From Enterococcus dispar ATCC 51266 (lineage in GTDB: Bacteria > Bacillota > Bacilli > Lactobacillales > Enterococcaceae): a stretch of 64,000 bases of DNA. A program made the position numbers and the translations under genes. The stretch is taken from the NCBI RefSeq assembly GCF_000406945.1, contig NZ_KE136354.1, positions 2,077,290 to 2,141,289 on the forward strand, written 5' to 3'. Shown here one piece after another: positions 1-14,919 of this stretch. The notes beneath the pieces are model-generated. The model saw only the letters and a program-made list of their open reading frames with translations. It was not told the DNA's origin and did no database searches. The first letter of the stretch is position 1, and each line of letters opens with the position of its first letter.

Positions 1-2842
1 TCAAACCGTAAACACCTAATTCATATATTCGCACCGCACTATCAGAACCTTGTGTTGGTTTGTCCACTATGATTTTGACATATCGAGCGGAAACGACTTT
101 AAAAGTATCTTGTGTTTCACCGTCGGTATTGGAAATTACCCGCGCAACTGACGTAAATTCCTTGCCATCTTCACTAACTAAAATACTATAAGCTTTTGTA
201 TTCATATCAGGTGCTTCTCCCCCAGCTTGGGCATGGGCCATGTGGACTTCACTAACGGTTTGGACAGAACCCAAATCAACTGTAATTTCATGAGGTGGAT
301 TGCCAGTAGCACACCATTTTGTTTTTAGATCTCCGTCTACAGCAAATTTTGGTGCCTCGCCATCATTAACAAAAGAAGAAGCTTGGGTTGTTGCATTTTT
401 TGATAATAACGATAAGCCATCGGCAGCTTGTTCACTAACGGTAATAAAACCTTTTGTTTGGCTAGTATCTTCACCAGCTTCATTTTTGGCAACCAATTTT
501 ACCGTATAGGTTCCCGGTTTATCATAGGTCACCTTTTGTTCATCTTTTTTACTTTCAGTTATATTTGCGCCTTCAAATTCCCAGCTAACGGATTTTGTAT
601 TTGTTGAAGAGCTGTTCGTAAATGTGACTTCTTCTCCTGGTTTAATCAATGTTTTAGATGCTTTGAAGGCTGCTTTCGGAATAGCGTTATCCGGCCATTT
701 GAGTGTGACTTTTTGCGATTCTTTTCCTTTATTGCCCCATATATCTACTGGAACTACAACAAAGTTGGTTTTGTTAGTGTCATCGTTTCGCTCTAAGGCA
801 TTAATATAATGATTGGCACTTGGCGTTGCACCAATAAATGAATAAGTTTCATCTTGATTAATACGATAAATTTCATAATGATCCAAATTGTTATCTTTCA
901 CTTTAGACCAAGTTAAACGAACACCGGCGTAGTTACTTTCTTCTTCATCAAATAGCTTATCCTCAATTTTTAAATTTTGAACTTGTTTGGAGAAATCTTT
1001 TTCCGGTGGGGTAATCGCTATTTGACCTAGTCGTAATTCATAAACATCCGAGCTCTTTTCAGCTGTTAAGTCATAACTAATAGCCTTAATTTCTTTACCC
1101 GCTGCTTTTTTGACATCATAAGTCACAGTTGTCCAGTCCGAACCGACTTTTTGATCGCCTTTAAAAGTTTGCTTTTTACCATCTGCGTAAGTTAATACTA
1201 ATTGCAATGCTGTTTTCTCCGTTGCTTTGGCGGTTGTGGTGAACACGGTATCTGATGCTAATTGCATATCTGTCGCATAAAGTTTTATTTTGCTGGTCGC
1301 GTCTTTTTCCATTGTTCCCCGCATTTTTATTGAATTACCACCTTGGTAAGCATCGGCATAATCCATTGTAATGTTTAATTTATTTTCTTTTTCATGTTCT
1401 GTAATCCAACGATAAGTCGGCATAATATCTTGTAGACTACGGTTATTCCAATCCATATTGGAAACTTTTTTGCCTTTAATAAAATAATTATAGCCATTCC
1501 CTAAGTTGAAATTAGTAACAAAGGGCATTGTGGTAATAGCAGTTTGTTCTAAAGCGTAAGTGGAAACCCCTGGCCATTTGCCATCGGCAACGGGAACGCT
1601 TAATTGGGGATTGGCTTGGCTATTTACCCAAAAGGTATTTTCCATTGTTTGATTATCATCTGGTGTACTACTTGAATAGTATGTCCAATCTGGTACGTAA
1701 AGTCCTAATGAAGTGTAAGGTTTATTATTTTTATCTGCAAATAAACTCCAACGTACCGGCGTACTAAAGCCATTTTCTTGCACATCGATACCCGCATATA
1801 AATCATAAGGATTCACTTTAATTTTTTCCGCTTTTTCTTTTGAAGCTTTTAATAGATCTTTATTCGCTAATTCTTCCGTGTTCCACCAAAAATTTAAAAA
1901 CATATTATCAGCGACGGGATTCATTTGGGCATCCACTAAATAGGCATCATTTTGATCCGTTAATGCATTTTGCCAATCCATTTTGCCTGCTTCAGTCATA
2001 GAGTCATACCACATGATGTCTTGTTTCTCTTTGACTTTTGCTTTGTAGGCTTTGATTAATTCTTGCATCAAAGTGGCGTGTTCTTTATTCAACCCATTTT
2101 TATCCGTAGTTTTTTTCGTCTCTTTGCCAGCAGCGACATCTTCAAAACTGGTAACTTCTGTATCGGTTTCTTGATTGATAAACCAGCCGTCAAAACCATA
2201 AGCATCTGCTACTGCAATCAATTTATCTACAATAGGAAAATTACCATTCCCATCTTTGGTTAAAAATTCATCTAACCACTCAATTTTACCCCCGTGAGCA
2301 GTTTGTGGGAAAAAGACAGTGCCTAAAATTGGGACACCATTTTTATGAGCTGCATCAATAACATCTGCGCTTGGCGGAACAATAATCCCTTCACCAGAAG
2401 AACCGCCCCAATAAACCATTTGATCGATGTATTGCCAAGATGAAAATGTATTGGCATCAAAGCTATTGATGCCCCGTGGCGCATTACCACTTGTACTGCT
2501 ATTCATAATCGACAATGCCACAACTTTCATGTCCGCATCTTGAGTAGGATTACTTTTTACTAACTCCTTTTTAGCTTCTCTTTTTGCTAATGGAATAGTA
2601 CTCACATTATATTTTGCATCCGGATCTTTTTTAAAATCCCATTTTAATAAGTCTGCTGGAAACCAATACGAGGATTGCGGCTGATTTTCCATACCACGAT
2701 CCAGTTTACTTTCTTCCGTTACTTTATAATTGATTTTATCTTCTTTACCTGCAGCCATTCCTTTGCCACAGCCCGTACCAGCAATGGTGAGTGCTGCAAG
2801 CATTGCAATCATTGCCGCACTTTTGAATCGAATAAATTTCAC
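1..2842 (-). CDS. Endo-beta-N-acetylglucosaminidase, GH85 lipoprotein (3' end outside window)
   Basis: Cleaves the GlcNAc-GlcNAc core of N-linked glycans at the cell surface. The gene opens with GTG (2842) after an AGAGGGGG ribosome-binding site and stays open to the window edge (947 codons seen). The first ~25 residues form a lipoprotein-like signal ending TIAGTGC; glycine at -3 is atypical for a lipobox. The GH85 barrel follows, with the catalytic pair in WFINQETD (Asn223 assisting, Glu225 acid). Then come a beta-sandwich, a fibronectin-III-like stretch (IRL-type HYEIYRI sequence), a PKD domain starting near residue 720 and a discoidin (F5/8 type C) domain from about 805 to beyond the edge. 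It is similar in layout to pneumococcal EndoD but appears lipid-anchored. It is transcribed apart from the upstream importer operon. Family assignment is secure; exact glycan specificity is inferred. Confidence 0.93.
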   Translation of the reverse strand, partial: MKFIRFKSAAMIAMLAALTIAGTGCGKGMAAGKEDKINYKVTEESKLDRGMENQPQSSYWFPADLLKWDFKKDPDAKYNVSTIPLAKREAKKELVKSNPTQDADMKVVALSIMNSSTSGNAPRGINSFDANTFSSWQYIDQMVYWGGSSGEGIIVPPSADVIDAAHKNGVPILGTVFFPQTAHGGKIEWLDEFLTKDGNGNFPIVDKLIAVADAYGFDGWFINQETDTEVTSFEDVAAGKETKKTTDKNGLNKEHATLMQELIKAYKAKVKEKQDIMWYDSMTEAGKMDWQNALTDQNDAYLVDAQMNPVADNMFLNFWWNTEELANKDLLKASKEKAEKIKVNPYDLYAGIDVQENGFSTPVRWSLFADKNNKPYTSLGLYVPDWTYYSSSTPDDNQTMENTFWVNSQANPQLSVPVADGKWPGVSTYALEQTAITTMPFVTNFNLGNGYNYFIKGKKVSNMDWNNRSLQDIMPTYRWITEHEKENKLNITMDYADAYQGGNSIKMRGTMEKDATSKIKLYATDMQLASDTVFTTTAKATEKTALQLVLTYADGKKQTFKGDQKVGSDWTTVTYDVKKAAGKEIKAISYDLTAEKSSDVYELRLGQIAITPPEKDFSKQVQNLKIEDKLFDEEESNYAGVRLTWSKVKDNNLDHYEIYRINQDETYSFIGATPSANHYINALERNDDTNKTNFVVVPVDIWGNKGKESQKVTLKWPDNAIPKAAFKASKTLIKPGEEVTFTNSSSTNTKSVSWEFEGANITESKKDEQKVTYDKPGTYTVKLVAKNEAGEDTSQTKGFITVSEQAADGLSLLSKNATTQASSFVNDGEAPKFAVDGDLKTKWCATGNPPHEITVDLGSVQTVSEVHMAHAQAGGEAPDMNTKAYSILVSEDGKEFTSVARVISNTDGETQDTFKVVSARYVKIIVDKPTQGSDSAVRIYELGVYGL

Positions 2843-3151
2843 TTTTTGTCCCCCTCTAAAACACTTTTTCACGTAATACGTCACTCCTAATTTACTCAAA
2901 CTATAGTTTGAATTTTCCTAATTTGTTGCTTTTTCGCTATTTTTTTACTACTCTGCTATCTTTTTACAATACTTACGATAAAAATATATAATTTCTAATA
3001 AAAAATAGTAGTATTTACTTAGCGATAAAATTTTTACTCCTTTCGTTATTTTTATAGCCTATTTAAAGATATCGCTTTCAAATGCGGTTTTATATTAACA
3101 AACTATAGTTTTTTTTGAACAAACTAAATAATCACTATCGTTATTTAAATA
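2843..3151 (-). promoter_or_regulatory. Regulatory region of the GH85 gene with two identical palindromes
   Basis: This AT-rich gap contains no gene. The 12-bp perfect palindrome AAACTATAGTTT occurs at 2898-2909 and again at 3100-3111, 202 bp apart. Each copy contains TATAGT, which could serve as a -10 element, but neither has a convincing -35 at 17 bp, as expected for an activator-dependent promoter. A cre-like site lies at 3067-3080. A binding protein is not identified; the YesN-type regulator encoded nearby, or a ROK/LacI repressor elsewhere, are possible. The repeat itself is seen directly; the operator role is inferred. Confidence 0.5.
3067..3080 (-). promoter_or_regulatory. Candidate cre (CcpA) site
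   Basis: On the minus strand the site reads TGAAAGCGATATCT, matching the cre consensus TGWAANCGNTNWCA at 13 of 14 positions. It lies between the ROK gene terminator and the GH85 start, so carbon-catabolite repression of the endoglycosidase is likely. Confidence 0.5.
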
Positions 3152-3195
3152 GACAAAAAACAGCTCATCAAGAACGTGTATGTCTTTGATGAGCC
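3152..3195 (-). terminator. Rho-independent terminator after the ROK kinase gene
   Basis: On the minus strand CTCATCAA pairs with TTGATGAG across a loop and is followed by a T-rich run (GTTTTTTG). It begins just past the ROK stop codon and separates that operon from the GH85 unit. Confidence 0.75.
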
Positions 3196-3201
3196 GAGTG
3201 A

Positions 3202-4059
3202 TTATCCTTTTAAAACTTCAAAATTCGCCGCAGCACCAATAAGATTGGCATCATTTTTAAATTTGCAGGCGACAACTTCTGGCATAATACTTTCGACACC
3301 TTCTGCTTTTAACAGCTCAAAAAGTCGCATTTTAATATTTTCAATCACATCTAGACGCACCGAGATTCCACCGCCAATAATCATAATCTCTGGGTCAATG
3401 GAAACTTGCACGTCGTATAAGGAGTGGGCAAGTGCATCGTACATCTCATTTAGATATTTTTGGGCTAACGCATCCCCTTGATCTGCCAACTCAAATAACC
3501 GCCGACCATCTACTTTTTGCCCCGTATCGGCGGTAAATTTTCTGGCGGTATTTACCGCTGTCCCAATCGGGCTTAAAATACTTTTACCAAAAGGTTTCAT
3601 CAAACCGAGTTCTCCGCCGAATAAATGACTGCCTTGATAAATTTTGCGATTAATAAAAATGGAGCCCCCAATACCGGTGCCAATGACGACAAAAACCGCA
3701 TTTTGCGCTTGTGTTCCTGCGCCTAATTCAATTTCGCTGATGCCCGCACAGTTGGCATCATTTTCAATTGTGACTGGCACTTTAAACTCCGCTTCCAATT
3801 GATCAAAAATGGGACGATTGTGTAAATATGTCACCGCACTAATCCCATCTATCCGACGTTCTTTAACGTTTACTGCACCAGGAGAGCTGATTGCCACACC
3901 GTCAATTGCACCAATCGTTGCAATAACATTCTTCATTTCGGCTACCATTTCTGCAAAAGTCGCCGGTGTAGCAAAGCTGCCTTGGTTATGTAGCGTTTTA
4001 TCTTCCCATGTTCCATATTTTACGGCTGAACCGCCAATATCAAAAACTGCAAGTACCAT
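3202..4059 (-). CDS. ROK-family sugar kinase
   Basis: A 285-residue ROK protein that probably phosphorylates a monosaccharide released in the cytoplasm (glucose, N-acetylmannosamine or mannose class). The N-terminal phosphate loop is DIGGSAVKYG, and the central sugar/ATP signature is VVIGTGIGGSIFINRKIYQG followed by GGELG. The CxCGxxGC zinc motif of classical ROK glucokinases is absent, so it belongs to the zinc-less kinase branch rather than the DNA-binding repressors; it also has no N-terminal helix-turn-helix. ATG with AGGAGG 5 nt upstream. It follows the GH1 gene after about 110 bp and ends the operon at a terminator. Pneumococcal N-glycan loci also carry a ROK kinase. Substrate is not determinable from sequence. 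Confidence 0.88.
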   Translation of the reverse strand: MVLAVFDIGGSAVKYGTWEDKTLHNQGSFATPATFAEMVAEMKNVIATIGAIDGVAISSPGAVNVKERRIDGISAVTYLHNRPIFDQLEAEFKVPVTIENDANCAGISEIELGAGTQAQNAVFVVIGTGIGGSIFINRKIYQGSHLFGGELGLMKPFGKSILSPIGTAVNTARKFTADTGQKVDGRRLFELADQGDALAQKYLNEMYDALAHSLYDVQVSIDPEIMIIGGGISVRLDVIENIKMRLFELLKAEGVESIMPEVVACKFKNDANLIGAAANFEVLKG

Positions 4060-4169
4060 CTAACTTCCTCCTTAGTTAAACTATCACCAATATTTTTAAA
4101 CGGATTAAAAATAACAAAAAATTTTTATATGCTTGAGGCCATTTATTTTGTTGCCTTTGGCATTGGCAA

Positions 4170-5567
4170 TCAATCCACGTTAATAACGTCATCATAGCCG
4201 TTGTTTTTACTCACTTCTTTAAACCATAAACCGCTTTTTTTCAAAGTCCGTTTGTAATGATCGTTTAAATCAACGCGGTAAAAACCGTAGCGGTTGCGAT
4301 AACCATTAAGCCATGACCAACAGTCGATAAATGTCCATGTATGGTAGCCAAAACAATTACTTCCTTCAGCAATTCCTTGATGGAGATAATTCAAATGTTC
4401 CACCATAAATTCAATCCGATAGTCATCTTGAATCATGCCATTTTCGTCCATAAAGCGTTCTTCGTCAGCTACTCCCATCCCATTTTCAGAGACAAACCAC
4501 GGAAGGTTCTTGTATTCATGTTTCATCATCATCGCCACATCATATAAAGCTTCGGGATAAATTTCCCACCCCCGATAAGGATTAATTCGTTTTTCAGGCC
4601 AGTCGTAAGGCGCATATAAATCTTCTGGCATGACCGCTGGAACATGAGGATTTTTTGGTGCTTGGACCCGCCGTGGATGGTAATAATTCAACCCGATAAA
4701 ATCAACGGTATTTTGCAAAAGCACTTTATCTTCTGCTTGTGTTTCAGGCGTTAATTCGTTTTCAGCTAATAAATCAATCAACCCTTGCGGAATTGTGCCA
4801 TGCACAGCTGGATCTAAGAAACTTTTGGTATTCAGTAAATCTGAAGCAAGTCCTGCTTTTTTATCCGCTTCAGCGTCACTGCGGGTATAAGTGGGGGTAA
4901 TATTCAAAATAATTCCGATTTTACCTGTTGGTAATACTTGGCGAAACTCGCTTACTGCTGCCGCATGCGCCAAAAGGGTGTGATAGCCTACTTGTACCGC
5001 TTTTTTAAAATCGACAAGCGCAGGATAATGGTAACCGTATAAATACCCCATCTCTACGTGCACAATGGGTTCATTGAAAGTGGTCCAGTCAGTCACCAAA
5101 TCGCCAAAAGTTTCAAAAGCGGTTTTCGCGTAAAAAGCAAAAGCGTCTACGGCTTCTCGAGCTTCCCAGCCGCCTTTATTCATTAACCACATGGGCATAT
5201 CAAAGTGAAACAAGTTAATAATCGGCTTGACACCGTTGGCTTTTATTTGCTTAAAATAATCCCGATAAAAAGTGACGGCTTCTTTGTTGACCGTTTTACC
5301 GTCTGGCAACAGGCGCGCCCATGAAATAGAAGTTCGATACGAATTCAATCCGATGTCTTGCATTCGCTTACAATCTTCTACATACATTTCATACAAATTC
5401 GAGGTATTTTCCGGACCTTCATTGTCATTGAATTTTTCCGGTGCTGTTTCATACCAGTAATCCCATGTTGTCTTTGTCTTGCCGTTTTCTAAACTGTGCC
5501 CTTCTGTTTGAGGGGCAGACGTTGCTGCCCCCCACAAGAATCCTTTTGGAAATTGCTTTATTGTCAT
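4170..5567 (-). CDS. GH1 beta-glycosidase
   Basis: A 465-residue TIM-barrel glycosidase. The acid/base is Glu166 in TFNEP and the nucleophile Glu361 in VSENG. The frame is open further upstream, but the ATG at 5567 is chosen because AGGAGG precedes it by 8 nt, the protein then begins MTIKQFPKGFLWGAATS as GH1 enzymes do, and the long version would overlap the response regulator gene. The phosphate-binding triad of 6-phospho-beta-glycosidases (Ser, Lys, Tyr) reads Ser418, Asn425, Tyr427 in SWLNGYRNRYG: the lysine is missing. With an ABC importer rather than a PTS next door, an unphosphorylated substrate is likely. It is probably co-transcribed with the ROK kinase downstream and the response regulator upstream. 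Confidence 0.9.
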   Translation of the reverse strand: MTIKQFPKGFLWGAATSAPQTEGHSLENGKTKTTWDYWYETAPEKFNDNEGPENTSNLYEMYVEDCKRMQDIGLNSYRTSISWARLLPDGKTVNKEAVTFYRDYFKQIKANGVKPIINLFHFDMPMWLMNKGGWEAREAVDAFAFYAKTAFETFGDLVTDWTTFNEPIVHVEMGYLYGYHYPALVDFKKAVQVGYHTLLAHAAAVSEFRQVLPTGKIGIILNITPTYTRSDAEADKKAGLASDLLNTKSFLDPAVHGTIPQGLIDLLAENELTPETQAEDKVLLQNTVDFIGLNYYHPRRVQAPKNPHVPAVMPEDLYAPYDWPEKRINPYRGWEIYPEALYDVAMMMKHEYKNLPWFVSENGMGVADEERFMDENGMIQDDYRIEFMVEHLNYLHQGIAEGSNCFGYHTWTFIDCWSWLNGYRNRYGFYRVDLNDHYKRTLKKSGLWFKEVSKNNGYDDVINVD

Positions 5568-5603
5568 CGTATTTCCTCCTACTTTCTGGTTATGATACAT
5601 TTT

Positions 5604-5628
5604 ACTTTTTCTTGTAATGAGAAAAAGT
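5604..5628. other. Perfect inverted repeat between response regulator and GH1 genes
   Basis: ACTTTTTCT and AGAAAAAGT form a 9-bp perfect stem with a 7-nt loop in the 64-bp gap. No T run follows on the minus strand, so it is not a standard terminator; an RNA-stability or processing hairpin is possible. Confidence 0.45.
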
Positions 5629-5631
5629 GCT

Positions 5632-7116
5632 TTAGCTTTGTAAATCAGCATAATCCCCATGATACGCATCACGAAATTCTTTGGGGGTAATCCCATTTAG
5701 TTTTTTAAACATTTTGGAAAAATAATTGGTATTGTTATAGCCAATTTCATCGGCGATCTCATTAATATTCAGATTACTATGGAGTAGCAACTGCTGTGCC
5801 CGTTTAATCCGAATTTGATTTAAATATTGTGAAAAACTATTGTGCATTTCTTTTTTAAAAACTTGACCGAGATAAACGGCATTTAAGTGGAGCTGGTCGG
5901 CGACGAGTTTTAGCGTTAAATCTTGCCGATAGTGATTTTGCACGATGTCGATTACTTTTTGTGTCATTTCAGAAAATTGTTTTTCAACTGGTTGGCGCTT
6001 GGCCATCTGCAAAACATTTTCCAGCAGTTCTTTTAACTGATAAACAGTATGACTTTGCCGAATTTTTTCAATTGTTGCTTCATAAATGTCTTTGGTTGCT
6101 GTCGGGTATTGCCGCGAAATATCCGTAAAGAGTAAAAAGGCAATATAGCGGGTATTTTCCGGTTGTAATTGCCGCGCGACAGCATCTTCAAAAACGGCAT
6201 CCAATTCTTGTTGAATCGTCTTTTGATCCCCAATCATTAGCGATTTATTAAAGGCCAAAAATGAAAATTTACTTTCTCTGATTTCTTCTGCCAAATCAGC
6301 GGCAAAAGTTGGCAATAAATCCGGATAAAAATCATTCAATTCTTCTATTTGTAAGACTTTTTCATAGCTTTCGTATAAATTTTCCCATTCTTCAATCGTT
6401 TCACCAACAAAAATCTTTAAAATTTTAGGATATTGGCGTTTTAAATAGGCCAAAAAGTGTAAAACATTTGCCGATGTCCCGTCAAAAATTAACGTGATTT
6501 GCTGGTACTGTTGGGGACCACCGGCAATAATCAGCGGTTGTCCAACTTTTTTGGCTTCTTTTACAATCGCTAGCAAAATGTCAGATTCACTTAAAATTTT
6601 AATGACCGTAAACGGACCAAAAGGATTGGTCCCAAAATGATCCATCAATTCATAAAAGTCTGTTTCGTTTAGTTCATCATTTAACCAACGACTCAAACTA
6701 TTTTCCAACACCAATTGTTCTTGTTCTTGGCGATGAACGGTTTTATCCAGCTCTATCTTAATTTTTTCCACAATTGCTAAAAGTTCTTCTTGATCGACAG
6801 GTTTGACCAAGTAGTCTTTTACCCCTAGGCGAATGCCTTCTTTGACGTATTCAAATTCCTGATAACCGGATAAAAAAATTGCCGCAAACTTATCCCCCCG
6901 CTGATATGCTTTATCAATCATTTCAATTCCCGTCATTTCGGGCATGGTAATATCGCTGATGACCAAATCTACTGTCGCATCTTTTAAATACGCCAAAGCT
7001 TCGGTACCGGTACGGGCGGTCTTAACGATTTCAAACCCCAGTTCGTGCCAAGGTAAAATTTGTTTTAACCCTTCTAAAATCATATATTCATCATCCACTA
7101 GCATTACCTTATACAA
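5632..7116 (-). CDS. YesN-type response regulator (AraC family)
   Basis: A 494-residue transcription regulator. The receiver domain occupies residues 1-120, with acidic pocket Asp8/Asp9, phospho-acceptor Asp55 in LVISDITMPEM and the lysine of LVKPVD. A long central linker of about 250 residues follows. The C-terminal 100 residues carry two AraC helix-turn-helix motifs, including LKLVADQLHLNAVYLGQVFKKE and INEIADEIGYNNTNYFSKMFKK. Its start overlaps the end of the histidine kinase gene by 8 bp, so the two are translationally coupled partners. YesMN-type pairs control neighbouring ABC importers and glycosidases, so the targets are probably the local importer and the GH85 gene. Confidence 0.93.
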   Translation of the reverse strand: MYKVMLVDDEYMILEGLKQILPWHELGFEIVKTARTGTEALAYLKDATVDLVISDITMPEMTGIEMIDKAYQRGDKFAAIFLSGYQEFEYVKEGIRLGVKDYLVKPVDQEELLAIVEKIKIELDKTVHRQEQEQLVLENSLSRWLNDELNETDFYELMDHFGTNPFGPFTVIKILSESDILLAIVKEAKKVGQPLIIAGGPQQYQQITLIFDGTSANVLHFLAYLKRQYPKILKIFVGETIEEWENLYESYEKVLQIEELNDFYPDLLPTFAADLAEEIRESKFSFLAFNKSLMIGDQKTIQQELDAVFEDAVARQLQPENTRYIAFLLFTDISRQYPTATKDIYEATIEKIRQSHTVYQLKELLENVLQMAKRQPVEKQFSEMTQKVIDIVQNHYRQDLTLKLVADQLHLNAVYLGQVFKKEMHNSFSQYLNQIRIKRAQQLLLHSNLNINEIADEIGYNNTNYFSKMFKKLNGITPKEFRDAYHGDYADLQS

Positions 7117-8836
7117 AATGATGTCCCCCTTTGATTTTAATCGTCAGAGTTGTTCCTTTGCCTAACTTAGAATCGATTGCCATGCTAAACGCTATTCCAA
7201 AAGTATTTTGTAAACGAGCATAGACATTGTGCATCCCAATTGAATTTTGCGCTTCATTTTCAATTTGTTTCAGTTTATTTTGTACTTCTTGCAAACGTTC
7301 AGGTGTCATTCCTTTGCCGTTATCAATGACGTAAATAACAATATCATCATCAACAAAATGCGCTTTGACACTAATCGCATTATCATTTCTCGTATAGTCA
7401 ATACCATGAACAAAATAATTTTCAATTAGTGGTTGAATGGTAAATTTCGGGATAACCAGTTCCTCTAAAGCCGGTTCAATCGTAAAGTTATAGGCCACCC
7501 GATCGGGGTAACGCATTTGATACAAGTAGACATATTTTTCACAAAAAGAGAGTTCTTTTTTTAATGTGGTCGTTTTTTCTTGCGTGGTATTATTACGCAA
7601 AAGGGCTGAAAAAGCGTAAACTACATCAGCTAATTCTTTTTGTTGTTTGCTCAAAGCATACATCCGAATATATTCTAAGGTGTTATATAAAAAGTGTGGA
7701 TTAATTTGCGATTGTAACGCCTGCATATGGGCATCGCGTTGTTTAATCTCCAACTCATAATTATCCCGAATATATTGATCTAAGCTGGCGATCATAAAAT
7801 TAATCGCTTCTGATAAATCATACAATTCATCTTGGACTTTGGAAACATCGATGCGCTCTTGTAAATTTCCTTCGGCGACACTGTGGGTAATGCCCACAAT
7901 CGTTTCAATTTGTTGGAAATAGCGTCTAAAGGTCCGTTTTAATGTGATGAGTAAGACCGCAGCCAGCCCACTGCCGACTAAAATTGCAATCGCAAAAGTG
8001 CGCAGATTTTTTTGCCATAGCACCTTTTTGCTGGCCAATAAAACATAGGAAAGATCACGACTGGTTTTTCTTTGTAATACATAATATTTACGGCTGATTT
8101 TTTTAGGGATCGGCTGTTTATTTTCTACGGCCGAAACTAATTTTTGATAGCCTTTTGGACTCAATTGATTATGCGTAGTAAACATAGGATTATTGGCGTT
8201 ATCAAATATATAGGCATCCATCCCATCCGAGACCATCGAATTTTCCAACATCCCCAACACAGCTGCTCGAGAAAAGACGGCGGAAACTTCTCCCACCATT
8301 TTGGAGCCATATTGATCTACAATCGGTCGTGTAATCACAAAGCCGCTTTTTGGCGGTATTTTCCCTTGTAGTTTACGGCCATTATGATTATTTTTATCCG
8401 CCATCAAATAACTAGATGAGCCATCCAGGGTCACATAAAGCTGCTCCAAATCATTAAAGGCATTAAAAAAACCGTTAATTGTTTCGGAGATACGAGTATC
8501 CCGTTGGTAAGCTAACCAAGAATCTTGGGTATACTCAAAATAATCAGCAGCAGATAAATTCAAGTATTGTCTTACATTATCAATGGCTGCATTGGAGCCT
8601 GCCAACTCCATGTAAATAAAACTCATCGTATCATTATTATCTTCCACTGAATTCATTACGCGATTTTCCAATCCCGCTAAATCACTGTTCATTTTCCGAT
8701 AATTGCTATCTGCTGTATAAACGCACAAAGCAGCCACCGTCAGCAGGATAACTCCTACCAACAGAAGGCTGTAAATTTGCATCAAGCGATTCATTAAATA
8801 TTTGCCTTTATCAAAACGAGCTAAGAATTTAGCCAT
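7109..8836 (-). CDS. YesM-type sensor histidine kinase
   Basis: A 575-residue membrane kinase. One helix near residues 18-41 and another near 277-298 flank a ~235-residue extracellular sensor region; a HAMP domain follows. The phospho-acceptor is His381 in NPHFLYNTLEYIRM (His_kinase/LytS-YesM class), and the ATPase domain has IQPLIENYFVHG (N box) and VIDNGKGM (G1 box). It overlaps yesL (8 bp) upstream and the response regulator (8 bp) downstream. The cue is probably an extracellular sugar or a sugar-loaded binding protein, which is inference. Confidence 0.93.
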   Translation of the reverse strand: MAKFLARFDKGKYLMNRLMQIYSLLLVGVILLTVAALCVYTADSNYRKMNSDLAGLENRVMNSVEDNNDTMSFIYMELAGSNAAIDNVRQYLNLSAADYFEYTQDSWLAYQRDTRISETINGFFNAFNDLEQLYVTLDGSSSYLMADKNNHNGRKLQGKIPPKSGFVITRPIVDQYGSKMVGEVSAVFSRAAVLGMLENSMVSDGMDAYIFDNANNPMFTTHNQLSPKGYQKLVSAVENKQPIPKKISRKYYVLQRKTSRDLSYVLLASKKVLWQKNLRTFAIAILVGSGLAAVLLITLKRTFRRYFQQIETIVGITHSVAEGNLQERIDVSKVQDELYDLSEAINFMIASLDQYIRDNYELEIKQRDAHMQALQSQINPHFLYNTLEYIRMYALSKQQKELADVVYAFSALLRNNTTQEKTTTLKKELSFCEKYVYLYQMRYPDRVAYNFTIEPALEELVIPKFTIQPLIENYFVHGIDYTRNDNAISVKAHFVDDDIVIYVIDNGKGMTPERLQEVQNKLKQIENEAQNSIGMHNVYARLQNTFGIAFSMAIDSKLGKGTTLTIKIKGGHHFV

Positions 8837-9443
8837 GTTGCGCCAACTTTCGTGCTACCATAAAACGATTGTCCTTGGTTGCAAAGCCGCTCCAAACCGC
8901 GATAAGCGCAAAAGTGGCAAATAACAACAACCCTTTAAAGAACCAAGTAAGCACCAAAATGGAAATGAGTCCAAATAGCACTTTTAAGAAGGCACTGAAA
9001 TTCAAAAAGACACTGACAAAAGCCAATTTGAATAAATTAAAATGCGTAATCTCATATTTTGTTTCATATTGGGTCACATATAAATAAAAAACAGTTGCTA
9101 ATAACAAGACAAAGACCAAAACAAAATCAATGACTAACCACAGAAGCCCTTGAATTTGGGCGGATAAATATAAGTTATAGCCCAGGAAAAAACTAATCCC
9201 CGCAAAAATCAAAAACTGAACATTGCTTCGTTTAAAGTTTTTACGCCATTGTCCCATAAATCCTTTAAAGGTCACTTGTTGATAATCAATACCATGTTCC
9301 ATCAACAAATCGGTCATCGTTTGAAAGGCTGGTCCCGCCCCCAAAAGCACACCACCCATTAAGGTAAATAAAACAAAATACAAATTTAATTTGATAATCA
9401 TCCAGACTACGTAAAAAAGACGCTGAATTCCGCTACTTACCAT
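8829..9443 (-). CDS. YesL-like DUF624 membrane protein
   Basis: A 204-residue protein with about five hydrophobic segments. DUF624/YesL proteins are commonly encoded beside LplABC-type importers and YesMN kinases; an accessory role in signalling or transport is presumed but unproven. The ATG has no strong GGAGG; AAGGAGTTTTTAAC precedes it. It overlaps the kinase gene by 8 bp. Confidence 0.8.
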   Translation of the reverse strand: MVSSGIQRLFYVVWMIIKLNLYFVLFTLMGGVLLGAGPAFQTMTDLLMEHGIDYQQVTFKGFMGQWRKNFKRSNVQFLIFAGISFFLGYNLYLSAQIQGLLWLVIDFVLVFVLLLATVFYLYVTQYETKYEITHFNLFKLAFVSVFLNFSAFLKVLFGLISILVLTWFFKGLLLFATFALIAVWSGFATKDNRFMVARKLAQHG

Positions 9444-9577
9444 GTTAAAAACTCCTTTATTCTCATTTTACAAATTCTTGCTTATTTGTAAAAACAACTT
9501 TTTTGATAATCACAGCTGAAACAACACGATGTTATTGCCTCAGCTTTAATCATCAATTTTACCATACTTTTCTTATG

Positions 9578-9615
9578 AGAAAAGCCAGCGACAGCAAATA
9601 ATTACCGCCGCTGAC
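9578..9615 (-). terminator. Terminator between binding-protein gene and yesL
   Basis: On the minus strand GTCAGCG pairs with CGCTGGC (one G-T pair) around a long loop, then TTTTCTC. The 202-bp gap also lets the abundant binding protein mRNA end here, with partial read-through or a separate promoter serving the regulatory genes. Confidence 0.6.
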
Positions 9616-9645
9616 AATTTCAAAATAAGAATATTTTCAAATTAA

Positions 9646-11115
9646 TTATTTGTTATCTTTCACAAATTGATCCAATTGTTTTTGCATATCTTTTTGAGCG
9701 TCATCCCAACCTGCTTTTTTCAATTCAGAAACCATTTCTGGAATCGTTTTTTCTGGGTCGATTGAACCGGTATTTAAGTTTGCTTTGTAGCGGTTCATGA
9801 CGTTCATGATGCTAGATAATTGGGTTTTGAAATTATCTGTTTTAACGTTGAAACCTAAGATTGGTGAAGTTTTAGCATTTTCAATACTTTCATCACGTTC
9901 TTTGATTTGTTCGTCTGTAATGGTATCTTGGGTGTATAAAATCATGTTGTTACCTGTATTCCAAGCGGCCATATGTTCATTTGGTTTGTAGCCATCTAGT
10001 AATTTCAACTTGTCATCGCCCACTTTTTCCCAGGCTTTGCCTTCCACACCGTAAACTAAACCATTTAATAATTCAGGGTCAGTGTTTAACAAGTTCAAGA
10101 ATTCAACTGCTTTTTCTTTGTTTTTAGAAGTATTGGAAACAACAAAGTTTGCCATTTGCGCTTGGCTTGTTGTTTTCAATTGTTGTGTTAACGGACGTGA
10201 AGTTAAATCTTGTTGTGCAGCATTACGTAAAATTGTATCGCCGTAATCCATTGGTCCTTGGGTTTCTTCCCGCATAAACCAAGTGTTGCCTTCTAATGGG
10301 AAACCAGTTGTGTTAGTAGCTGCATCCGTTGGAATTAAACCTTCTTTGTACCATTCATGCAATGTTTTCAAATTGTCTTGGAATTCTTTGTCTTCGTATT
10401 GGTTAATGATTTTTGGTGCACCATCAGCATCTAAACGAACTGCAAAAGGATAATCTTTTCCTAATGGGAAGTCCATGTTAGAAGAAGCGTTAAAGCTTTG
10501 ACCAATTGCAAAAGCAGCAATATTTGGTTCTTTTTCATGGAATTGCTTCAATACTTCAGTGGCAGATTGATAAGAGCCGTCTACTTTTGAAATATCCAAG
10601 TTATATTTTTTCACGTATTGATCGTTAAAAGTTAAAACTTGTTGTGCCCATGCATTGCCATAAACTGGAATTGCGTATAATTTGCCGTCTACTTCATTCC
10701 CTTTTTTGTACATTTCAGGTAATTGATCCATATAATCTTTGGCATATTTTTGTGACAATTCGGTTAAGTCAGCAAAAGCGCCTTTTTGGGCATTTGCAAC
10801 ATATTGATAAGCAAACGCAATATCATAACTTTCACCCGAGTTGATGATGGTTGGCATCTTCTTATCCCAATCGCCCCAACCAATATATTGTAAGTCAACT
10901 GTCACACCAATTTTTTCTTTGATGCGTTTGTTGGCAATCTTCATTAATTCATCGTAATTTTCTGGCTTGTCCCCAACTTGATACATTAATAATGTTTTTG
11001 AATCGCCACTTGTTCCTGAGTCTGTTGAGGCATCTTTTTGACTACCACAAGCAGCTAGCCCAGCTGTCATCAATGCCAATGCACTGACACCTAGCACTTT
11101 TTTCCACGTTTTCAT
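9646..11115 (-). CDS. ABC importer sugar-binding lipoprotein (LplA/NgtS-like)
   Basis: A 489-residue extracellular solute-binding protein. A lipoprotein signal ends at LAAC (Cys23) and is followed by a Ser/Thr/Asp-rich linker; the rest matches the large family 1 binding proteins of LplABC/YtcQ importers, similar in size to pneumococcal NgtS. The start follows GGAGGAG by 6 nt. It lies 18 bp downstream of the second permease gene. No ATPase gene is nearby, so it probably borrows a shared MsmK-type ATPase, as such importers usually do. Complex N-glycan is the inferred ligand because of the GH85 gene. Confidence 0.92.
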   Translation of the reverse strand: MKTWKKVLGVSALALMTAGLAACGSQKDASTDSGTSGDSKTLLMYQVGDKPENYDELMKIANKRIKEKIGVTVDLQYIGWGDWDKKMPTIINSGESYDIAFAYQYVANAQKGAFADLTELSQKYAKDYMDQLPEMYKKGNEVDGKLYAIPVYGNAWAQQVLTFNDQYVKKYNLDISKVDGSYQSATEVLKQFHEKEPNIAAFAIGQSFNASSNMDFPLGKDYPFAVRLDADGAPKIINQYEDKEFQDNLKTLHEWYKEGLIPTDAATNTTGFPLEGNTWFMREETQGPMDYGDTILRNAAQQDLTSRPLTQQLKTTSQAQMANFVVSNTSKNKEKAVEFLNLLNTDPELLNGLVYGVEGKAWEKVGDDKLKLLDGYKPNEHMAAWNTGNNMILYTQDTITDEQIKERDESIENAKTSPILGFNVKTDNFKTQLSSIMNVMNRYKANLNTGSIDPEKTIPEMVSELKKAGWDDAQKDMQKQLDQFVKDNK

Positions 11116-11133
11116 TACTTCTCCTCCACTCTA

Positions 11134-12060
11134 TTATTCTTTCACTCCGCCGATTGTCAATCCGCCGACAAAATATTTTTGGAAAAACGGATAGGTCAAT
11201 GCGATCGGTAATGTTGAAACCACAACGATTGCCATGCGGGCAGATTCAGAAGGTAATGCGGCAAGTCCACCTTGGATTTGCGCTCCCATGCCCGCGTTTT
11301 TAGCTAGAAAATCCAAATTGCTTTGAATTTTCATCAATAAATATTGTAAAGGTACCAAGTTGTCATTTTGAATGTAAAGTAATGCGTTAAACCAGTCATT
11401 CCAATAACCTAATGCGGCAAATAAACTAATCGTCGCAATCCCTGGTACTGCTAAAGGTAAAACAATTTTTGTAAAAATTCGTAATTCTGTTGCCCCGTCA
11501 ATCCGAGCAGATTCAATAATACTATCTGGCACTGTTTTAATAAAGAAGGTACGCATCACTAAAATATTAAAAGGTCCCAATGCCATTGGTAAAATCAATG
11601 CCCAAATTGTATCTTTCAAATACAGCATGTTGCTGACAATTAAGTACGTTGCTACCATCCCTGGTGTGAAAAGCATCGTCACTAAAGCAAAAACGGTAAA
11701 GAAACGGCGGAAAGGAAAATTTGACCGCGAAATCACATACGCATAAAGTGATGTCATGGTGGCATTTACCAGTGTCCCTAAAACCGTTACAAAAATCGTT
11801 ACGCCAAAAGCACGGAAGATTTTTGAACTCATTTGGCCGGCAAAAATGTAAGAATACGCCGCGGTTGAAAATTCTTTGGGCCAAAAACGATAGCCCAATT
11901 CCGCTAGTGAATGTTCTTCTGTCAGTGAGATCATCACGACAAAGAAAAACGGTAACACACATGAAATCGCAAATAACGCAATCAAGATATTGAAGATAAT
12001 ATTAACTGTAGGACTAAAGGAACGAATTTCCACTTTTGAAACTTTTTCTTTTTTACCCAT
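11134..12060 (-). CDS. ABC sugar importer permease (LplC-like)
   Basis: A 308-residue inner permease with six predicted helices and the EAA loop ESARIDGATELRIFTKIVLPLAVPG near residue 190-215, which contacts the ATPase. An upstream in-frame ATG exists, but the ATG at 12060 is preferred since AGGAGCGAC precedes it and the previous permease would otherwise be overlapped. It sits 13 bp after the partner permease gene. Confidence 0.93.
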   Translation of the reverse strand: MGKKEKVSKVEIRSFSPTVNIIFNILIALFAISCVLPFFFVVMISLTEEHSLAELGYRFWPKEFSTAAYSYIFAGQMSSKIFRAFGVTIFVTVLGTLVNATMTSLYAYVISRSNFPFRRFFTVFALVTMLFTPGMVATYLIVSNMLYLKDTIWALILPMALGPFNILVMRTFFIKTVPDSIIESARIDGATELRIFTKIVLPLAVPGIATISLFAALGYWNDWFNALLYIQNDNLVPLQYLLMKIQSNLDFLAKNAGMGAQIQGGLAALPSESARMAIVVVSTLPIALTYPFFQKYFVGGLTIGGVKE

Positions 12061-12073
12061 GTGTCGCTCCTCC

Positions 12074-13018
12074 TTAGAATAATGCTGAATCTGGTTCGAT
12101 CCGACGAACCACAAAGTTTGTGCCTAATAATAAAATTGCTCCGACCACTGATTGATACAAACTAGCGGCTGAAGACATCCCAATGTCTCCGGTGGCGGTT
12201 AAGCCGTTATAGATGTAAGTATCCAAAACTGATGTTACTTGATACAAGGCGCCGTTATTTCGCGGCAAGTTATAAAACATCCCAAAGTCTGCTCTAAAAA
12301 TACCGCCGATGTTTAAAATCAACAAGACCATCATCATTGGGACAATTTGCGGAATAGTAACATTTTTAATTTGTTGCCATTTGGAAGCTCCGTCCACCAT
12401 TGCAGCTTCATAATACGTCGGGTCAATTCCCATCACAGAAGCATAGTAGATGATACTGTTATAACCTAAGCTCTTCCAGACATTCATCACGACAAAAATC
12501 AGCGGCCACCAGGTTGGATCTGTGTACCAGTTAACAGGATTCTTACCGTTATTGGTCAACCATAAATTGAAAATCCCTTTGTCTGGGCTTAAAAAGGCAT
12601 ATAAAAAGTAACCGATTACAACCCAAGATAAAAAATAAGGTAAAAGAGACATCGTATGGTAAACTTTCACCAATTTTTTATTGCGTAATTCACTCATAAT
12701 AATTGCAAAAGCAATCGCAAAAAATAAATTGAATGCTAAGAAAACTACGTTGTAAGCAATAGTATTACGGGTAATTAACCACGCATCTTTTGAAGCAAAT
12801 AAGAATTTAAAATTCTCAAAGCCAACCCACTTACTCGTTACCAAACTATCAATGAAACCATTGGGTGAAATGTGAAAATCTTTAAAAGCTACCACATTGG
12901 CAAACACCGGTATATAAAAGAAAAAGATAAACCAAACAAATCCTGGCAATGCCATTAAAATCAAAGCTTTATAACGCCACACATTTTGCCAAAAGCTCAC
13001 TTTTTTTCTTTTCTTCAT
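12074..13018 (-). CDS. ABC sugar importer permease (LplB-like)
   Basis: A 314-residue permease, first gene of the importer operon. It starts with a basic MKKRKK end and a first helix ALILMALPGFVWFIFFFY, and carries the EAA loop YYEAAMVDGASKWQQIKNVTIPQIVP. The ATG follows AAAGGAGGTTTAAAG. LplB-type permeases serve oligosaccharide importers; here it pairs with the downstream LplC-like protein. Confidence 0.93.
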   Translation of the reverse strand: MKKRKKVSFWQNVWRYKALILMALPGFVWFIFFFYIPVFANVVAFKDFHISPNGFIDSLVTSKWVGFENFKFLFASKDAWLITRNTIAYNVVFLAFNLFFAIAFAIIMSELRNKKLVKVYHTMSLLPYFLSWVVIGYFLYAFLSPDKGIFNLWLTNNGKNPVNWYTDPTWWPLIFVVMNVWKSLGYNSIIYYASVMGIDPTYYEAAMVDGASKWQQIKNVTIPQIVPMMMVLLILNIGGIFRADFGMFYNLPRNNGALYQVTSVLDTYIYNGLTATGDIGMSSAASLYQSVVGAILLLGTNFVVRRIEPDSALF

Positions 13019-13332
13019 CTTTAAACCTCCTTTAATTTTTCTACTAACAGAAGACTTGGACTACGCCTCCCTGACGTAGTAATAATACCGCTTTCAATTG
13101 TCTGAAGTAAGAAACAAACTTTAGATAAGATGCAACAAATTTTAGAAATGGTATATCTTTTTTCATATTTTGTTCACAATAAGAAAAGCTAAATGAAGAT
13201 ATATCTTCATAAAGATATATCTTCTCTATAAATATAAAAACAACAAGTGAACGATTTTTATTTTCCGTCTTTTTAAAGCAGGTATATAATAACAATTGTT
13301 TTAAAAATAAAATAAAGGTTGGCGTTAAGAAA
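13019..13332. promoter_or_regulatory. Divergent control region between importer operon and GW-C39 gene
   Basis: No gene is seen. A cre-like site on the minus strand, TGAAAGCGGTATTA (13083-13096), matches the consensus at 13 of 14 positions and sits about 65 bp before the permease start. A small hairpin CTACG...CGTAG lies in the leader near 13062-13080. At about 13196-13224 AGATATATCTT is repeated directly, each copy being itself palindromic. On the plus strand TATAAT (13285-13290) is a good -10 for the GW-C39 gene, with a poor -35. Confidence 0.5.
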
Positions 13333-14919
13333 ATGAAAAATAAGAAGATCTTTTTAGGAGGATTGGCGTTATTAATCCTGCTAAGTCTTGCTCCTATGTC
13401 AACTCAAGCAAAGACAACAGAACCAACCAGTAGCGATGCTCCCTCTATCCAATCTAGTACTACCGATTATAATGATACTTTTGAAAGTAGCGCTGTAGTA
13501 AGAAGCAGTTCTATCCCACAGGCTGTAATTTCTGCTACAGGACAAATGACAGAAAGTTCTATCAGTAAAGAAGAAGTCAGTCCACAAGGTAGAACAGCGA
13601 CAGTAATAGAAAATGAACCACAAAAAACCAGTACTACAAAATCCGGTGCTAAAAAGACAGCGGCAAATACCCCCATCAAAGCAAAAAAAGCAAATTTTTA
13701 TATTCAAATTACTAATAAAAACTACACTATTTGGTCAAATTTTTCTTGGCATAAGCGGGCTGTTAGTGCCATTTATATCAATACACTATTGCATGTAAAA
13801 GTGGTGTATCTCCACCAAAACGGAGCGACCTACTACTCTTTATATAATAATCAAGATAAATGGGTGGGCTATTTGAATGCTGGCGCAACCAAAACAGTCC
13901 CCATACAAGGTTTATGGCATGCTACCACAAAATACGTCACCGTCACGAAACCGTCTTGGACAATATGGAATAACTTTAACGGTCAAGCCAAATACAAAGC
14001 CGCTACACTTAATAATCGCGTCGTAAAAGTAAGTGGCTACTACAAACATTTTAACGGTGCAACTTACTACTCACTTTATGATAATAACAATAAGTGGTTA
14101 GGCTATTTGAATGCTGGCGGCGTGAAAGAAGTAGTACCGCAGGGTTATTATCATAGTTTAAATAAATACGTTAAAATTACTAAAAATTGGACAGTCTGGC
14201 GCAATTTTAGTTGGCAATTCAAAAGTTCGGCCAATAGTATTGCTAAGCAAACAATTCTCGCTAAAGGTTATTATCACCATTTTAATGGGTCAACATATTA
14301 TTCTTTATACAATACAAAAGGAAGTTGGTTAGGCTATATCAATAGTGGTGCTACTGCAATTACAGCTGCTCCGAAGCCTGGTAAAGTAGTTTTATTGGGT
14401 GTCCCTTATATTAATCAAGGTAATACTATGTTATGCGAAGGCGCTTCACTGTTAGAATCCCTACATTATAAAGGGATCGCAACCAAACAAAATTTAATGA
14501 CTTTTGTGAAGTCGATGCCAGTTTCTTCTAACAACAATCCCAATAATGGCTTTTCTGGCGAATGGCGGCATAACGTTAATGGTACGTATCAGGGAATGAA
14601 TCCAGCACCCGTAGTTAAATGGGGCAATAAAAACGGTGGCAAATTAGTAAATCTGACAGGTGCTACCGTTCAAATGTTGAAAAATGAAGTAGCCAACGCA
14701 AATCCGGTTATCGTGTGGGTTACTTATGCTTTTGAACCAGCGGAACATAAACACTTGTTTTGGGGTGATGCGCTTTGGAATCGCCATGTTGTCACAATGG
14801 ATGGTTATAAAAATGGCTTTTATCATGTCGTTGATCCCGTCTTCGGGCCAAGTTGGATTACGGCTAAAAACTTTGAAACTGCATATAACGTTTCACATTT
14901 AGCTGTTAGTGTACGCTAA
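13333..14919 (+). CDS. Secreted GW-repeat protein with C39-like cysteine peptidase domain
   Basis: A 528-residue exported protein. A signal peptide ends near AQAKT (about residue 28), and a Ser/Thr/Glu-rich linker runs to about 115. Three GW/SH3-like repeats of ~75 residues follow (about 120-345), each with a ...TYYSLYN...WLGYLNAG pattern, expected to bind wall teichoic or lipoteichoic acid. The last ~180 residues match the Peptidase_C39_2 (YvpB-like) fold, with candidate Cys368 (NTMLCEGAS), His485 (NRHVVTMDGY) and Asp501 (VDPVFG). No LPXTG. The ribosome-binding site is weak. A non-covalently wall-attached hydrolase or processing enzyme is the likely role; the substrate is unknown. Confidence 0.85.
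   Translation: MKNKKIFLGGLALLILLSLAPMSTQAKTTEPTSSDAPSIQSSTTDYNDTFESSAVVRSSSIPQAVISATGQMTESSISKEEVSPQGRTATVIENEPQKTSTTKSGAKKTAANTPIKAKKANFYIQITNKNYTIWSNFSWHKRAVSAIYINTLLHVKVVYLHQNGATYYSLYNNQDKWVGYLNAGATKTVPIQGLWHATTKYVTVTKPSWTIWNNFNGQAKYKAATLNNRVVKVSGYYKHFNGATYYSLYDNNNKWLGYLNAGGVKEVVPQGYYHSLNKYVKITKNWTVWRNFSWQFKSSANSIAKQTILAKGYYHHFNGSTYYSLYNTKGSWLGYINSGATAITAAPKPGKVVLLGVPYINQGNTMLCEGASLLESLHYKGIATKQNLMTFVKSMPVSSNNNPNNGFSGEWRHNVNGTYQGMNPAPVVKWGNKNGGKLVNLTGATVQMLKNEVANANPVIVWVTYAFEPAEHKHLFWGDALWNRHVVTMDGYKNGFYHVVDPVFGPSWITAKNFETAYNVSHLAVSVR

Follow-up and report, generated by a model that had tools for sequence, protein, structure and literature searches.

A probable N-glycan utilisation locus of Enterococcus dispar and a proposed role for its GH1-ROK pair in the last step

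The locus described here raises the question of which glycan it serves and which of its products would cleave the last bond of that glycan. It lies at positions 1 to 13,018 of a 64,000-nucleotide stretch of the genome of Enterococcus dispar ATCC 51266 (contig NZ_KE136354.1, designated C1; C1:2077290-2141289), hereafter the window, and encodes an ATP-binding cassette (ABC) importer, a YesL-YesM-YesN signalling system, a GH1 beta-glycosidase, a ROK sugar kinase and a GH85 endoglycosidase. The original prediction had proposed foraging on host N-glycans as in the pneumococcal EndoD/Ngt pathway, and had singled out the GH1 as the odd piece without proposing a role for it. As the window holds no alpha-mannosidase gene, two alternatives had been offered: either these genes lie past position 1, or the pathway is a simpler one that handles another glycan. 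We searched the whole genome (G000, 2.82 Mb) and found genes of all four families that were to be looked for there, GH92, GH38, GH125 and GH20, directly adjoining the window. The first alternative was therefore right, with GH92, GH125 and GH38 located past position 1, and the simpler pathway was rejected. A complete N-glycan locus in which ROK and then GH1 carry out the last step is the overall explanation that we favour, with some reserve.

Every gene named in the original prediction was present and collinear on the minus strand, and each product scored above its own Pfam cut-off:

1..2899, minus strand: GH85 endo-beta-N-acetylglucosaminidase with GH85, GH85_C, PKD and F5/8C (discoidin) domains at 2-2899 (Pfam)
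2898..2909: palindrome AAACTATAGTTT, copy 1, in the GH85 promoter region
3100..3111: palindrome AAACTATAGTTT, copy 2, in the GH85 promoter region
3155..3196, minus strand: terminator-like stem-loop with T run, 3' of the ROK gene (RNA folding)
3202..4059, minus strand: ROK sugar kinase, proposed Man-beta-1,4-GlcNAc kinase (Pfam, closest solved relatives)
4170..5567, minus strand: GH1 beta-glycosidase, proposed to split (phosphorylated) Man-beta-1,4-GlcNAc (Pfam, relatives, neighbourhoods, loop motif)
5632..7116, minus strand: YesN-type response regulator, REC and AraC helix-turn-helix (HTH) domains (Pfam)
7109..8836, minus strand: YesM-type sensor histidine kinase, His_kinase, HAMP and HATPase domains (Pfam)
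8829..9443, minus strand: YesL-type membrane protein, DUF624 (Pfam)
9646..11115, minus strand: NgtS-like solute-binding lipoprotein, SBP_bac_1 and DUF3502 (Pfam, 5swa match)
11134..12114, minus strand: ABC permease, LplC/NgtP2-like, BPD_transp_1 (Pfam)
12074..13018, minus strand: ABC permease, LplB/NgtP1-like, BPD_transp_1, first gene of the long operon (Pfam)
13150..13221: three GRTATAYC operator-like sites (13150, 13198 and 13214) upstream of the transporter operon

The reading frame of the GH1 gene is open up to 5696; because the GH1 relatives start at the ATG at 5567, this ATG, and not the first ATG of the frame at 5696, is most likely the start. The predicted protein passed the Pfam GH1 cut-off and carries the motifs TFNEP and SENGMG, which we take to be the catalytic motifs of GH1.

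In the adjoining stretch (L002), the GH85 gene ends 17 bases past position 1 and is followed outward by genes for an Rgg-type regulator, GH92, a regulator with a GntR HTH and a LacI-type sensor domain, and then, divergently, GH125, GH38 and GH20. The next gene resembles that of RNase Y as read by eye. The set known from pneumococcus, GH92, GH38, GH125, GH20 and ROK, is thus entirely encoded at the locus, while a scan restricted to the open reading frames (ORFs) of the locus gave no GH29 fucosidase. The NgtS-like binding protein and two permeases are encoded at the locus and the ATPase elsewhere: the genome's only place above the Pfam cut-off for a MalK/UgpC-type ATPase is C1:1445923 (484 bits with the UgpC model, cut-off 432), a second place remaining below it. 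The signalling genes comprise a PF06580/HATPase sensor and a REC-AraC regulator with a DUF624 protein alongside, as expected for the YesMN type. Based on its gene content, the block is very probably a complete Ngt/EndoD/CPL-type N-glycan utilisation locus with its own YesLMN system.

The binding protein, GH125, GH38 and GH92 all matched solved proteins of N-glycan pathways. The closest solved relatives were 5swa (507 bits), 5mlt and 5suo (500 bits) for the binding protein, 3qpf for GH125, 3lvt/5kbp and next 2wyh for GH38, and 6dwo/7fe1 and next 5swi for GH92. GH85, which contains the presumed GH85 catalytic motif FINQE, was closest to 3fha, followed by 2w91 (EndoD); GH20 was more distant from solved relatives (113 bits at best). 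We take 5swa and 5suo to be pneumococcal NgtS, 5swi to be SpGH92, 3qpf to be SpGH125 and 3fha to be EndoA. These matches bear on the possibility that fungal or plant mannan or free oligomannosides, and not host N-glycans, are the substrates of the locus, with GH85 being incidental. Such a role would accord with four congeners that keep the locus, as far as it was fetched, without any GH85, and with related GH1-ROK pairs that also occur in phosphotransferase system (PTS) operons with a mannosylglycerate-hydrolase-like GH38. However, the binding protein scored at least 500 bits against 5swa/5suo, and GH125, GH38, GH92 and GH20 constitute the CPL set. In addition, NgtS binds Man5GlcNAc (PMC5215778), and N-glycans are the exclusive substrates of those GH85 enzymes that have been characterised (PMC10154615). 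A mannan locus is therefore highly improbable, and the predicted foraging on host N-glycans is well supported by the gene content.

The system as a whole is already known, and the Enterococcus block is a new example of it, to which a proposal for the last step is added. In pneumococcus, the N-glycan genes are spread over the genome as EndoD, NgtS-P1-P2 and a GH20-ROK-GH38-GH125-GH92-GH29 locus (PMC5215778). This CPL/EndoD/NgtS-P1-P2/TCS07 system shares with the Enterococcus locus GH85, GH92, GH38, GH125, GH20 and ROK, an NgtS-like importer without its own ATPase, a two-component system with an AraC-type regulator, and a GH1 (BglA3, which belongs to the regulon). In contrast to pneumococcus, the entire Enterococcus block spans about 24 kb with GH1 and ROK inside the transporter/YesLMN operon, an extra GntR-LacI regulator with operator-like sites is present, GH85 carries PKD and discoidin domains and lacks an LPXTG motif, and GH29 is missing among the locus ORFs. 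GH29 does not define such systems, as it is missing in S. suis, S. intermedius and S. iniae; in S. gordonii, S. iniae and other species, many of the N-glycan genes do lie together (PMC7075642). The Enterococcus locus gathers into one readable block what is scattered in pneumococcus, and its gene order suggests candidates for a step left open there, the fate of Man-beta-1,4-GlcNAc.

From the observed gene content, gene order, families and neighbourhood counts we infer the following activities. Outside the cell, GH85 would cut Man(n)GlcNAc from glycoproteins, and the NgtS-like protein and the two permeases would import the glycan, powered by a shared MsmK/UgpC-type ATPase that is encoded elsewhere. 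Inside the cell, where GH20, GH92, GH38 and GH125 would act (no signal peptides were seen by eye in these four), GH20 would take off N-acetylglucosamine (GlcNAc) caps, and GH92, GH38 and GH125 would take off alpha-mannose to leave Man-beta-1,4-GlcNAc. The ROK kinase encoded next to GH1 would then phosphorylate the mannose of this disaccharide at O6, and GH1 would hydrolyse the phosphorylated product to mannose-6-phosphate and GlcNAc. A cytosolic kinase would be needed on this route because an ABC importer delivers unphosphorylated sugar.

Once GH20, GH92, GH38 and GH125 are assigned, GH1 is the sole hydrolase of the locus left without a role. We consider it reasonably likely that GH1 acts on the ManGlcNAc core. 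In the pneumococcal model, the fate of Man1GlcNAc was left undetermined and no beta-1,4-mannosidase candidate was identified (PMC5215778), and a 2023 review lists, in the portion available, GH2, GH5_18 and GH130 alone for the Man-beta-1,4-GlcNAc bond (PMC10154615). Ectopic expression of the TCS07 regulator in pneumococcus raised the GH1 gene bglA3 by a log2 fold change of 7.6 and the ROK gene by 8.6; S. gordonii, S. cristatus and S. iniae have bglA3 directly downstream of tcs07, although the gene is not specifically co-inherited with it (PMC7075642). We found no publication assigning ManGlcNAc cleavage to GH1 or ROK among the accessible parts of open-licence papers. To our knowledge, 6-phospho-beta-mannosidase activity would be new to GH1. 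If the proposal is true, ROK SPD_1970 and BglA3 would be candidates for the missing last step in pneumococcus too, and the pathway would be closed in many Bacillota with such loci.

The assignment of GH1 was examined through its gene neighbourhoods. An alignment of 13 GH1 sequences served as the query against the named genomes, and the best 80 of 574 relatives, a selection biased to close ones, were compared with 20 control GH1 loci, more distant paralogues of 35-43% identity hand-picked among the matches listed. Neighbour markers were located by tblastn, some flanks being shortened by contig ends. GH38, MngB-like GH38, GH125 or GH92 in the flanks examined counted as an alpha-mannosidase, and a ROK gene no more than 1 kb away on the same strand counted as adjacent; a 500-bp limit gave 31/80 and missed the window-type locus L103. 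An alpha-mannosidase gene was found in the flanks of 39/80 GH1 relatives and of 0/20 controls (Fisher 1.5e-5), and within 1 kb in 30/80 and 0/20 (Fisher 6e-4), while a BglK-like ROK gene was adjacent in 34/80 and 0/20 (Fisher 1e-4), the loci in all three comparisons not being independent. ROK genes further off within the stretch occurred at 4 of the 20 control loci. A PTS EIIC gene was present within 6 kb in 21/80 relatives versus 13/20 controls. ROK and PTS as strict alternatives were not upheld, since both occurred in 4/80 loci and neither in 29/80.

Similar linkage was seen in an order-wide sample, in which 27 of the 39 ROK genes with at least 50% identity among the matches listed adjoin a GH1 of the locus type. 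The sample listed 53 GH1 genes with at least 66% identity. A ROK gene of this kind adjoins 27 of them and GH125 adjoins 10, while 37 have either such a ROK neighbour or a listed GH125 no more than 25 kb away. A quick GH1 tree of 85 family rows and 7 controls required a minimum of 19 changes in alpha-mannosidase linkage and of 11 in ROK adjacency, indicating that the linkage of GH1 to alpha-mannosidase and ROK genes recurs. Four streptococcal GH1 relatives showed neither kind of linkage. Loci outside the Lactobacillales were found in Erysipelothrix (L149), Evansella (L170, with the order GH85-GH1-ROK-GH38-GH125) and Anaerosalibacter (L154). The GH1 of the congener G008 was 95% identical to that of the window.

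Gene arrangements within this family varied. GH38 is located upstream of GH1, with ROK next, in L107, L112, L117, L120, L124, L126, L127, L135, L154, L160, L164 and L166. The GH38 of L107 is mannosylglycerate-hydrolase-like. Genes for a fructose-type PTS lie ahead of the GH38 gene in L107, as shown by family searches, and in L117 and L160, as read by eye. These PTS - mannosylglycerate-hydrolase-like GH38 - RpiR-like - GH1 - ROK operons contain the same GH1-ROK pair adjoining an alpha-mannosidase gene, but differ from the Enterococcus locus in having a fructose-type PTS instead of ABC import and an MngB-like GH38 (families searched: L107). A further variant, L068-L071, has the order GH38 - PTS EIIC - RpiR-type regulator - GH125 - GH1, with no ROK gene in the stretch (families searched: L068).

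Sequence motifs were consistent with a phospho-type enzyme. All 84 GH1 family rows (34 ROK-adjacent, 17 PTS-adjacent, 29 others and 4 streptococcal) contain the loop SWxNx[YF]xNRYG. Non-phospho GH1 enzymes have a sugar-binding Glu in place of the Ser of this loop, which in 6-phospho enzymes holds the phosphate; the PTS-adjacent members presumably act on a phosphorylated sugar. Of 13 NCBIfam models, that of the disaccharide kinase BglK (NF042998) was the best for ROK. The closest solved relatives were 2gup (ROK) followed by 4htl (beta-glucoside kinase) for the kinase, and 4b3k (beta-glucosidase) and 5foo (6-phospho-beta-D-glycosidase) for GH1. BglK beta-glucoside kinases paired with 6-phospho-beta-glucosidases occur in Klebsiella and Listeria (PDB 4htl). 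The Enterococcus pair shares with these systems a ROK disaccharide kinase paired with a 6-phospho-beta-glycosidase, but both of its proteins are far under the family cut-offs, and mannose would take the place of glucose as the sugar. We take the GH1 of the S. pyogenes GH38 operon to be SPy1599, PDB 4b3k. This operon (SPy1604, the GH84 SPy1600 and a GH1) likewise combines GH1 and GH38 with transporter and two-component genes; it differs in having GH84, and GH85 and GH125 are not mentioned in the available part of the report (PMC2815779).

Several observations weigh against the proposed role of the pair. The Ser is also present in 18/20 controls and NRYG in 11/20, two controls being unmatched by the pattern; the loop is therefore not specific for mannose and indicates a phospho-type enzyme at most. 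The Lys of classical 6-phospho enzymes is replaced by Asn in locus-type GH1 proteins. The GH1 scored below the cut-offs of all 8 NCBIfam models listed, including those of the 6-phospho type (307.9 versus 610 for PRK13511, 255.6 versus 561.2 for lacG and 239 versus 623 for PRK09852), and ROK reached 136 bits with the BglK model (cut-off 550). The closest characterised GH1 relatives are called 6-phospho-beta-glucosidases, i.e. gluco and not manno. No alpha-mannosidase gene was present in the flanks examined of 41/80 relatives, and 12 of the 39 mannosidase-linked loci lacked both an adjacent ROK gene and a detected PTS EIIC gene, L049 and L077 being clear cases; no BglK-like ROK was detected in 20 kb of L049, L072, L075, L076 and L077. 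The kinase beside GH1 in E. casseliflavus-type loci is ScrK-like, a distinct ROK type (L080 scored 362 bits with the ScrK model, cut-off 400, versus 33 with BglK). An independent-pairs test did not decide whether ROK adjacency and alpha-mannosidase linkage go together, and the choice of motifs, thresholds and control loci was in part made after the data had been inspected. Partly because of the control motif counts, we propose no more than tentatively, and short of an even expectation, that the phosphorylated route, ROK followed by a GH1 6-phospho-beta-mannosidase, finishes the core in Bacillota N-glycan loci.

Part of this evidence would fit a plain, non-phospho beta-mannosidase acting on Man-beta-1,4-GlcNAc, with ROK phosphorylating the freed mannose or GlcNAc. 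Such an enzyme would explain the alpha-mannosidase loci that carry GH1 without a BglK-like ROK as well as the Asn in place of the classical Lys. In contrast, Ser replaces the sugar-binding Glu in all 84 rows, PTS-adjacent relatives retain the same loop, and SPy1599, presumably 4b3k, is reportedly a 6-phospho-beta-glucosidase, according to the title of a publication. Although S. oralis growing on RNase B has beta-1,4-mannosidase activity (cited in PMC2815779), we regard the plain enzyme as unlikely.

With a similarly low probability, GH1 might be a mere passenger of the operon, a 6-phospho-beta-glucosidase or -galactosidase whose substrate is an unrelated disaccharide, with ManGlcNAc being handled by GH130 or excreted. 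SPy1599 (by the publication title) and pneumococcal BglA3 are described as 6-phospho-beta-glucosidases, and 13/80 relatives lie near a PTS EIIC gene with neither ROK nor alpha-mannosidase seen. Moreover, the same genome encodes a GH130 at C1:2214184, 134 kb away, which also counts against the role proposed for GH1. However, of the 24 genomes searched, all of which carry GH1 and alpha-mannosidase loci, just 7 had a GH130 above the cut-off (13/24 at E 0.001), and G004, G008 and G009, which share the ROK-GH1 locus, were not among these 7; the neighbours of the E. dispar GH130 look by eye like GH13, ABC and phosphohexomutase genes and not like N-glycan genes. The recurrent linkage of GH1 to alpha-mannosidases likewise argues against an unrelated substrate. 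A search for GH2 beta-mannosidase gave 0/24 genomes with a control that was likewise silent, so that this count carries no weight. The GH130 region itself (L101:5480-14694, G000:C1:2211479-2220693), with ABC, GH13-like, GH130 and phosphohexomutase-like genes, is perhaps for beta-mannobiose, as judged by eye.

Regarding the control of the proposed N-glycan pathway, YesLMN would sense the glycan, and the GntR-LacI-type regulator would act via GATATATC-like operators at both halves of the locus. A scan of a 34-kb stretch gave 9 occurrences of the motif GRTATAYC, of which three precede the transporter operon (window 13019-13332) and two lie between gh125 and gntR (L002:8979-9140). These 5 sites in 476 intergenic bases compare with 0.02 expected and were matched by 0/2000 random sequences, the motif having been picked with the sequences in view. 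In the region upstream of the permease gene, one site was kept in 4/4 congeners examined, and both gh125-gntR sites were kept in 4/4 relatives extracted (L034-L036 and L047; L033 and L048 not included), while L047 has no GRTATAYC upstream of the permease gene. We take these sites to be putative GntR operators joining both locus halves. The original prediction had emphasised the locus's own YesMN-type signalling. YesLMN is indeed present, but two-component control is not special to this locus, as pneumococcal TCS07, with its AraC/XylS-type regulator, switches on the same N-glycan gene set (PMC7075642, PMC9603416). That TCS07 is of the YesMN type is our own reading, the term being absent from PMC7075642.

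GH85 appears to stand apart from the other genes. Folding of the ROK-GH85 intergenic region revealed a strong stem-loop (-18.4 kcal/mol, z -5.17, 0/200 shuffles as low) with a T run, a long-loop structure that a simple terminator scan had not listed. GH85 is therefore likely to have its own transcript and promoter, and the long operon permease-permease-binding protein-YesL-YesM-YesN-GH1-ROK probably ends at this stem-loop. In the GH85 promoter region, the perfect palindrome AAACTATAGTTT is present in two copies 202 bases apart. The sequence CAAACTATAGTTTG has one exact occurrence in the genome, and its sole one-mismatch site is the second palindrome copy. Seven GH85 relatives had no copy of AAACTATAGTTT in their 4-kb loci.

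GH85 was found in 7/23 genomes searched, including the congeners G002, G005 and G007. Four other congeners (G008, G009, G004 and G001; L033-L036) have the transporter operon, YesLMN, GH1, ROK, GH92, GntR and GH125 in the same order, with GH38 present in L034-L036 and the stretches ending before GH20. In these four, the Rgg gene follows ROK with no GH85 in between, and genome searches detected no GH85 anywhere in G008, G009, G004 and G001. GH85 thus looks like an addition to the locus, and a place in its core was rejected. As the locus occurs there without any GH85 in the genome, these congeners must depend on another endoglycosidase or on glycans freed by others. The Rgg-type regulator between GH92 and GH85 (L002:13325-14215) is retained in congeners; Rgg regulators elsewhere respond to peptides.

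The original prediction had described GH85 as a lipoprotein with PKD and discoidin modules instead of an LPXTG anchor. The domains and the absence of LPXTG from the C-terminus were confirmed. Judging from its N-terminus, read by eye, the protein is secreted. The lipoprotein reading is doubtful, because the residues before the Cys (...AGTGC) do not form the canonical lipobox [LVI][ASTVI][GAS]C, whereas that of the binding protein is normal (LAAC). The seven GH85 relatives, three from congeners (73-75% identity) and four other family members (61-62.5%), align over nearly all 902 residues, so that the idea of an unusual architecture was dropped. At the other end of the locus, a gene on the plus strand (window 13333-14919), divergent from the permease gene, encodes a secreted C39-like peptidase with repeated W-containing modules.

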